Shown: positions 28,801 through 31,800 of the stretch, piece after piece
How positions within the stretch are numbered: position 1 is the stretch's first letter
How the letters are laid out: each line of letters begins with the position of its first letter
Assembly (NCBI GenBank): GCA_021770845.1
Contig: JAETQF010000013.1
Coordinates: 40,522 to 104,521, forward strand
From: Oscillospiraceae bacterium
Lineage (GTDB): Bacteria; Bacillota; Clostridia; Oscillospirales; Oscillospiraceae
DNA: 64,000 nt
Direction of reading: 5' to 3'
Made by a program: the position numbers and the translations under genes
Notes under the pieces: generated by a model
Database searches by the model: none
Seen by the model: only the letters and a program-made list of their open reading frames with translations
What the model was told of the DNA's origin: nothing

Positions 28801-31800
28801 TCAGTCTTCCTCGCCGTAGGAGTCGTCGTCCTCCCCGGCGTCCTCGTCGTCAGCGGCGGCCAGATCGTCGTCGTCGCTGCTCTCCTTCATGGTGAAGCCC
28901 GCGTCGGCAAACTCGCTCTCGCTGCCCACGTCCTGATAGCGGTCGTAGTCGTCGTCGCGGAAGCGGCCGGGCTGGTAGTTGTCCTCGTCGTCGTCCTTCA
29001 GCTCGATCTGGCTGCCGTTCTCGTCCAGCACCTGGATATCCAGGCACAGGGCCTGGAGCTCCTTCACCAGCACCTTGAAGGACTCGGGCACGCCGGGCTT
29101 GGGCACGTTGTAGCCCTTGACGATGGATTCGTAGGTGCGCACGCGGCCCGTCACGTCGTCGGACTTGACGGTGAGGATCTCCTGGAGCGTATACGCCGCG
29201 CCGTAGGCCTCCAGGGCCCACACCTCCATCTCGCCAAAGCGCTGGCCGCCGAACTGCGCCTTGCCGCCCAGGGGCTGCTGGGTGACCAGGGAGTAGGGGC
29301 CGGTGGAGCGGGCGTGGATCTTGTCGTCCACCAGGTGGTGGAGCTTGAGGAAGTAGACGTAGCCCACGGTGACAGGGGGTTCAGCACAATGTCCAGGGGG
29401 GTGCCGTCGGGCAGGAAGGGCATATCCTCCTGGGGCAGGATGCGGGACACCACGCCCTTGTTGCCGTGGCGGCCGGCCATCTTGTCGCCCACGGAGATCT
29501 TCCGCTTCTGGGCGATGTAGACCCGCACCACCTGGTTCACGCCGGGGGACAGCTCCGCGCCCTCCTCCCGGGAGAACACCTTCACGTCCACCACGATGCC
29601 GTACTCGCCGTGGGGCACCTTCAAAGAGGTGTCCCGGGTCTCGTGGGCCTTCTCGCCGAAGATGGCCCGGAGCAGGCGCTCCTCGGCGGTCATCTCCGTC
29701 TCGCCCTTGGGGGTGACCTTGCCCACCAGGTAGTCGCCGGCCCGCACCTCCGCGCCCACGCGGATGATGCCCCGCTCGTCCAGATCCTTGAGCACGTCCT
29801 CGCCCACGTTGGTGATGTCCCGGGTGATCTCCTCGGGGCCCAGCTTGGTGTCCCGGGCCTCGGTCTCGTACTCCTCAATGTGGATGGAGGTGAACACGTC
29901 CTCCTTTACCATCCGCTCGTTGAGCAGGATGGCGTCCTCGTAGTTGTAGCCCTCCCAGGTCATGAAGCCCATGAGGATGTTCTTGCCCAGGGCGATCTCG
30001 CCGTCGGAGGTGGAGGGGCCGTCGGCCAGGGTGTCCCGGGCGTGCACCTGGTCGCCCACCGCCACGATGGGCCGCTGGTTGATGCAGGTGCCGTGGTTGG
30101 AGCGCAGGAACTTGGTGAGCTTGTAGTCCTTCTCCCCCTTGCCGTCGTAGCGGACGGTGACGTGGGTGGCGTCCACGGCGGTCACCACGCCGTCCCCCTC
30201 GGCCAGCACGGCCACCTCGGAGTCCTGGCAGTTCTTGTACTCCTGGCCGGTGGCCACGATGGGGGCCTCGGTGGTGAGCAGGGGCACGGCCTGACGCTGC
30301 ATATTGGCGCCCATCAGGGCCCGGTTGGCGTCGTCGTTCTGGAGGAAGGGGATCTGGGCGGAGGCCACGGACACCATCATCTTGGGGGAGATGTCCACGT
30401 AGTCCACCCGATCCCGATCCACCTCGATGATCTCGTTGCGGTGGCGGCAGGCCACACGGGCGCGGACAAAGCAGCCGTTCTCGTCCACCGGCTCGGTGGC
30501 CTGGGCCACATTGTACTCGTCCTCCACGTCGGCGGTCATATAGTCCACCTGGTCGGTGACCTTGACGGCCACGCACTTCCCGTTCTCGTCCAGGATCTTC
30601 TCCGTCCGGCGGTAGGGGGCCTCGATGAAGCCGTACCGGTTCACCCGGGCGTAGGACGCCAGGTAGGAGATCAGGCCGATGTTGGGGCCTTCCGGCGTCT
30701 CAATGGGGCACAGGCGGCCGTAGTGGGAGTAATGCACGTCCCGGACGTCGAAGGAGGCCCGGTCCCGGGACAGGCCGCCGGGGCCCAGGGCGGACAGGCG
30801 GCGCTTGTGGGTCAGCTCCGCCAGGGGGTTGGTCTGATCCATGAACTGGGACAGGGGGCTGGAGCCGAAGAACTCCTTGATGGCCGCGGTGACGGGCCGG
30901 ATGTTGATCAGGGCCTGGGGGGTCACCATGTCCAGATCCTGAATGGTCATGCGCTCCCGGATCACCCGCTCCATGCGGGTAAAGCCGATGCGGAACTGGT
31001 TCTGGAGCAGCTCGCCCACGCAGCGCAGGCGGCGGTTGCCCAGGTGGTCGATATCGTCCGCGCTGCCCACGCCGAAGGCCAGGCAGTTCAGGTAGTTGAT
31101 GGTGGCCATGATGTCGTCCACCGTAATGTGCTTGGGGATGAGCTCGTCCATGTGGTCGTGGATCAGCTCGAGGAAGTCCTCCTTGGACAGCTTCTCCGCC
31201 TCCCGCTTGGCCAGCAGATCCTTCAGCGCGGCGAAGCGCACCTTCTCGGTGACCCCCGCCTCGGCGGGGTCGAAGTCCACGAAGCCCTTCATGTCCACCA
31301 TGCCGTTGGAGAACACCTTCACCAGGTGGGTGCCGGTGTGGAGATCCTCCACCTCCACCACCGCCTCGTTGACGCCCAGGGCCTCCAGCTCCCGGGCCCG
31401 ATCCCGGGTGAGCGTCTCGCCTGACTCCGCGATGATCTCGCCGGTGGAGGGGTCGGCCACCGGGGCGGCCAGCTTCTGGCCGGACAGCCGCGTCCAGATG
31501 GCCAGCTTCTTGTTGAACTTGTACCGGCCCACGTTGGACAGGTCGTACCGGCGGGGGTCGAAGAACAGGGCGGTGAGCAGACTCTCGGCGGAGTCCACCG
31601 TGGGGGGCTCGCCGGGGCGCAGCTTCCGGTAGATCTCCAGCAGGGCCTCCTCATAGGTCTTGCAGGAGTCCTTTTCCAGGGTGGCGAGAATCCGGGGATC
31701 CTCCCCGAACAGCTCCAGGATGCCCGCGTCGGTGCGGGGGCCGATGGCCCGGATCAGGCAGGTGACGGGCAGCTTGCGGTTCTTGTCGATGCGGACGTAG

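Follow-up and report, generated by a model that had tools for sequence, protein, structure and literature searches.

Is the break in rpoB at this locus a lesion carried by the organism, or a product of the way in which its sequence was put together? Within the window (the whole stretch of DNA that was analysed, 64,000 nucleotides), rpoB lies on the minus strand from 32363 to 28801 and gives a normal beta-subunit reading up to the residues LDIVLNPL, after which the frame is lost. The first-pass annotation had described an internal deletion plus frameshift at this point, with about 70 residues (roughly 200-230 bp) gone from a gene whose remainder, like the adjoining rpoC, appeared normal. The features concerned are listed here, with G060 denoting the genome of the nearest relative found.

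29373..32363, minus strand: 5' part of rpoB, in frame to LDIVLNPL (ORF list; NF001616, 1310.1 bits, profile positions 2-894; 98.8% identity to residues 1-997 of the G060 protein)
29372..29373, minus strand: junction, where 208 bases of congeners are absent and the frame is lost (anchor distances; global alignments)
29151..29372, minus strand: out-of-frame tail of the 1070-aa frame past the junction (ORF list; used as its own search query)
28801..29367, minus strand: 3' part of rpoB, undamaged, 188 aa in its own frame (ORF list; NF001616 profile positions 982-1095; 99.5% identity to the G060 protein)
24878..28783, minus strand: rpoC, intact neighbour (1301 aa; TIGR02386, 1760.9 bits; equal length in G060)

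The ORF list divides the gene between two frames: one of 1070 aa, which starts at 32363, passes LDIVLNPL and, now out of frame, terminates in a stop that ends at 29151, and a separate one, from 29367 to 28801, which encodes the C-terminal 188 aa and begins GYVYFLKLHHLVDDK... Measured between one anchor on each side of the break, the window has 18 bases where all 27 congener loci checked have 226 (27 genomes; 29 loci were fetched, and L050 and L057 were excluded because their contigs end short of the site). Thus 208 bases, or 69 codons and one base, are missing. A gap of the same size fell at the break site in 12 of 12 global alignments, and the break is positioned between 29372 and 29373, a placement ambiguous by one base.

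That the gene is rpoB follows from scores above the NCBIfam equivalog cut-offs, the 5' piece alone reaching 1319.4 bits with TIGR02013 (cut-off 801.15) and 1310.1 bits with NF001616 (cut-off 896), and from the presence of rpoC alongside. No single frame spans the whole profile, however: along the 1096 positions of NF001616 the first piece stops at 894 and the second, in a different frame, begins at 982, whereas the intact congener protein P0009, 99% identical to the window's rpoB over the 5' part, extends from 2 to 1095. P0009 and the rpoB of G060 represent the same gene, in G060 also with rpoC adjoining, and differ from the window in keeping both the segment and one continuous frame.

The expectation that the rest of rpoB is normal was borne out not only by the identity of its two pieces to the G060 protein but by the distribution of nucleotide mismatches between codon positions. 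Against G060, mismatches at positions 1, 2 and 3 numbered 12, 4 and 70 upstream of the break (70 of 86 in third position) and 1, 1 and 12 downstream (12 of 14); against G002, the corresponding figures were 28, 21 and 112, and 4, 7 and 28. Given this third-position bias, no decay is visible on either flank. The comparison with G060 thus gave no sign of the relaxed constraint expected in the remaining coding parts of a pseudogene, a sign that a very young pseudogene would also lack. Likewise, rpoC proved as normal as had been supposed, its 1301 aa equalling the length in G060.

The contig as a whole is collinear with G060 across about 83 kb. Among 62 ORF pairs compared, 14 were covered over less than 95% of their length and just two, namely rpoB and a 155-aa ORF within a poorly aligned stretch, were divided between a pair of ORFs. 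We considered a generally poor assembly and saw no sign of it across the roughly 83 kb compared. The genome assembly comprises 2.48 Mb in 48 contigs and is 82.39% complete, with 0 contamination. Two further observations pertain to this contig. Near window position 35162, 328 bases of G060 are missing, at a place that follows a 75-aa frame, precedes the next and touches neither; the stretches of other relatives that were searched had no match there, and we take the difference as probably ordinary variation. At 18448-18634, on the plus strand, lies a malK-I RNA (Rfam RF03069; 124.4 bits, gathering score 60.3).

A cell that lost this part of the beta subunit, an essential component of RNA polymerase, should not survive. 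The first-pass annotation held the segment to be present in every functional beta subunit, which agrees with its distribution in named loci elsewhere (80 loci, the best of 597 matches, all of other genomes): it occurs in frame and without a stop in 78, by the looser of two motifs (the first motif found 71 of 80), and the remaining two begin inside the segment, at contig ends. Among the rpoB relatives listed, the best 120 of 8000 candidates scored, 118 have PF04560, the C-terminal domain; P0001, the window's own junction protein, and a record of 996 aa that is named partial do not.

Used as a protein query, the out-of-frame tail retrieved eight matches: P0001, which occurs on one contig, so that the lesion was seen in one assembly only, and seven others with one member sequence each. 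These seven (single-contig or source-only records) were judged by eye to break frame at other places; one of them, P0007, is a record of RpoC whose front part is read out of frame. The six frame-broken rpoB records, P0002 to P0006 and P0008, resemble the window in being single records with the tail in the same wrong frame, but differ in that none has the same deletion by eye, and four of the six still start the segment in frame. An exact search of genome_contigs for the 44-base junction pattern gave 0 matches, although the window genome and its nearest kin may lie outside what it covered.

Could the cell dispense with this copy, having a second, whole rpoB elsewhere in the genome, with the window copy a fresh pseudogene? 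The first-pass annotation had raised the existence of another rpoB as one of two explanations, and the search of the whole assembly did not bear it out: PF00562 matched only at the window locus, as two pieces, and the missing stretch, in its G060 version, was not found elsewhere, the nearest match being 26 bases. The assembly is 82.39% complete, so that a copy could be missing from it and the absence of another copy is not proven. The window copy, however, adjoins an intact rpoC and lacks decay, and we regard a second rpoB as very unlikely. Less credible still is a working beta subunit made in two pieces from the 5' and 3' frames, the missing residues being dispensed with. A GTG start of the 188-aa frame falls right at the junction, and that frame is well conserved; against this, the same GTG is an ordinary valine codon in intact relatives such as P0009, a search of the assembly gave no other copy of the missing 69 codons, and the segment is kept in frame in the 78 of 80 named loci. 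That this Oscillospiraceae bacterium has, as a real and fixed state, a beta subunit split in two and short of about 70 conserved residues of the core strikes us as scarcely believable.

A further alternative is that some of the sampled population, as dying or mutant cells or as molecules derived from amplification, carried a real and recent deletion, and that the assembler preferred this form over the intact one. The undecayed flanks would also fit a very recent event, and relatives such as G060 have a six-base repeat, AACCCC, at both ends of the segment. The join, however, is not at a simple repeat crossover: its sides have one base in common and share no 8-mer within 60 bases, on which grounds we rejected a repeat-driven deletion. 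A five-base overlap in BLAST at the break reflects alignment extension only. We also rejected a deletion driven by a hairpin, since the folding energy of the G060 region is unremarkable among 39 windows of that locus (-48.7 kcal/mol, rank 19; mean -48.2, sd 7.0). Moreover, because the loss should be lethal, the short form could hardly be the majority. We give a real deletion only a slim chance, if a better one than either preceding alternative.

There remains the other explanation raised at the outset, a misassembly, and of the two this has the better support: the junction occurs on one contig only, both flanks are constrained at the codon level, and the segment is kept in all 27 congener loci checked. 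Together with the size and place of the gap, these observations lead us to infer that the 208-base loss in rpoB is very probably an assembly error rather than a real mutation. The window genome is probably metagenome-derived. Its source would have been a mixed community in which related species living together have stretches of rpoB in common, letter for letter; these may have tangled the graph used for assembly, and the join, with loss of the intervening piece, would then have been made during scaffolding or gap closing. In the living cell, rpoB would in that case be whole and ordinary. Given the single shared base and the lack of a shared 8-mer, the join is not accounted for by a plain k-mer misjoin. 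Also counting against a misjoin are the otherwise collinear course of the contig with G060, its good coding quality, and the fact that long shared runs are common in this rpoB. A chimera of two species was considered and set aside; the best relative around the break alternates (G060, G016, G018 and others), but mismatches per 50 bases are too few to show a switch of source.

Identical runs do lie near the break on both sides. The 115 bases just after it, with one before, are identical in G016, which is another species, and on the other side a stretch of at least 90 identical bases stops 17 bases short of it. The 116-base run belongs to the longest class in the window's rpoB, in which 3.3% of bases lie in runs of at least 116, 53% in runs of at least 55, and half in runs of at least 60. 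Such a setting accords with the paper on metaMIC (PMC9661791), according to which metagenomic misassemblies arise from conserved sequences common to organisms, especially closely related strains that share an environment; there, errors are detected from reads, whereas the window's break was judged from the assembled sequence alone. Resistance genes are described, in another report (PMC11479545), as places around which metagenomic assemblies tend to break.

Across the genus, 17 of 41 congeners show rpoB either absent or interrupted by the end of a contig. The number of contigs by itself predicts 6.9 to 7.3 such cases (P about 1e-4 to 2e-4); allowing for incompleteness as well raises the prediction to 10.4 to 10.7 (P 0.013 to 0.018). 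A gene of about the same length (window 19827-23171), taken as a control, was cut or missing in 4 of 41, as counted by eye among the matches listed (Fisher p 0.0019 against rpoB). With incompleteness counted in, the signal of rpoB as a weak spot is modest.

Two other irregularities of rpoB were seen among the congeners. Contig C12 of G035 (L163; G035:C12:1-3000, bases 1-227) holds a partial rpoB that is joined out of order in the part of the gene where the window has its break: the contig opens with about 119-131 bases of rpoB, and these are followed by sequence that should precede them. A whole rpoB is present in G035 as well, on C45. The part of rpoB matched by PF00562 measures 1320 bases in G054 (G054:C34:8051-9370) and 1302 in G047 (G047:C11:125190-126491), compared with about 1158 in most genomes listed, a difference in length that suggests an insertion in these two.

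Were the deletion real, it would overturn the accepted view of the essential core of RNA polymerase. Most likely the rpoB break is something ordinary and not a real feature of the organism, and its main value is one of caution: in a genus of which 17 of 41 genomes show rpoB missing or truncated at a contig end, a lesion in rpoB, or its absence, in such genomes is no evidence about the cell.
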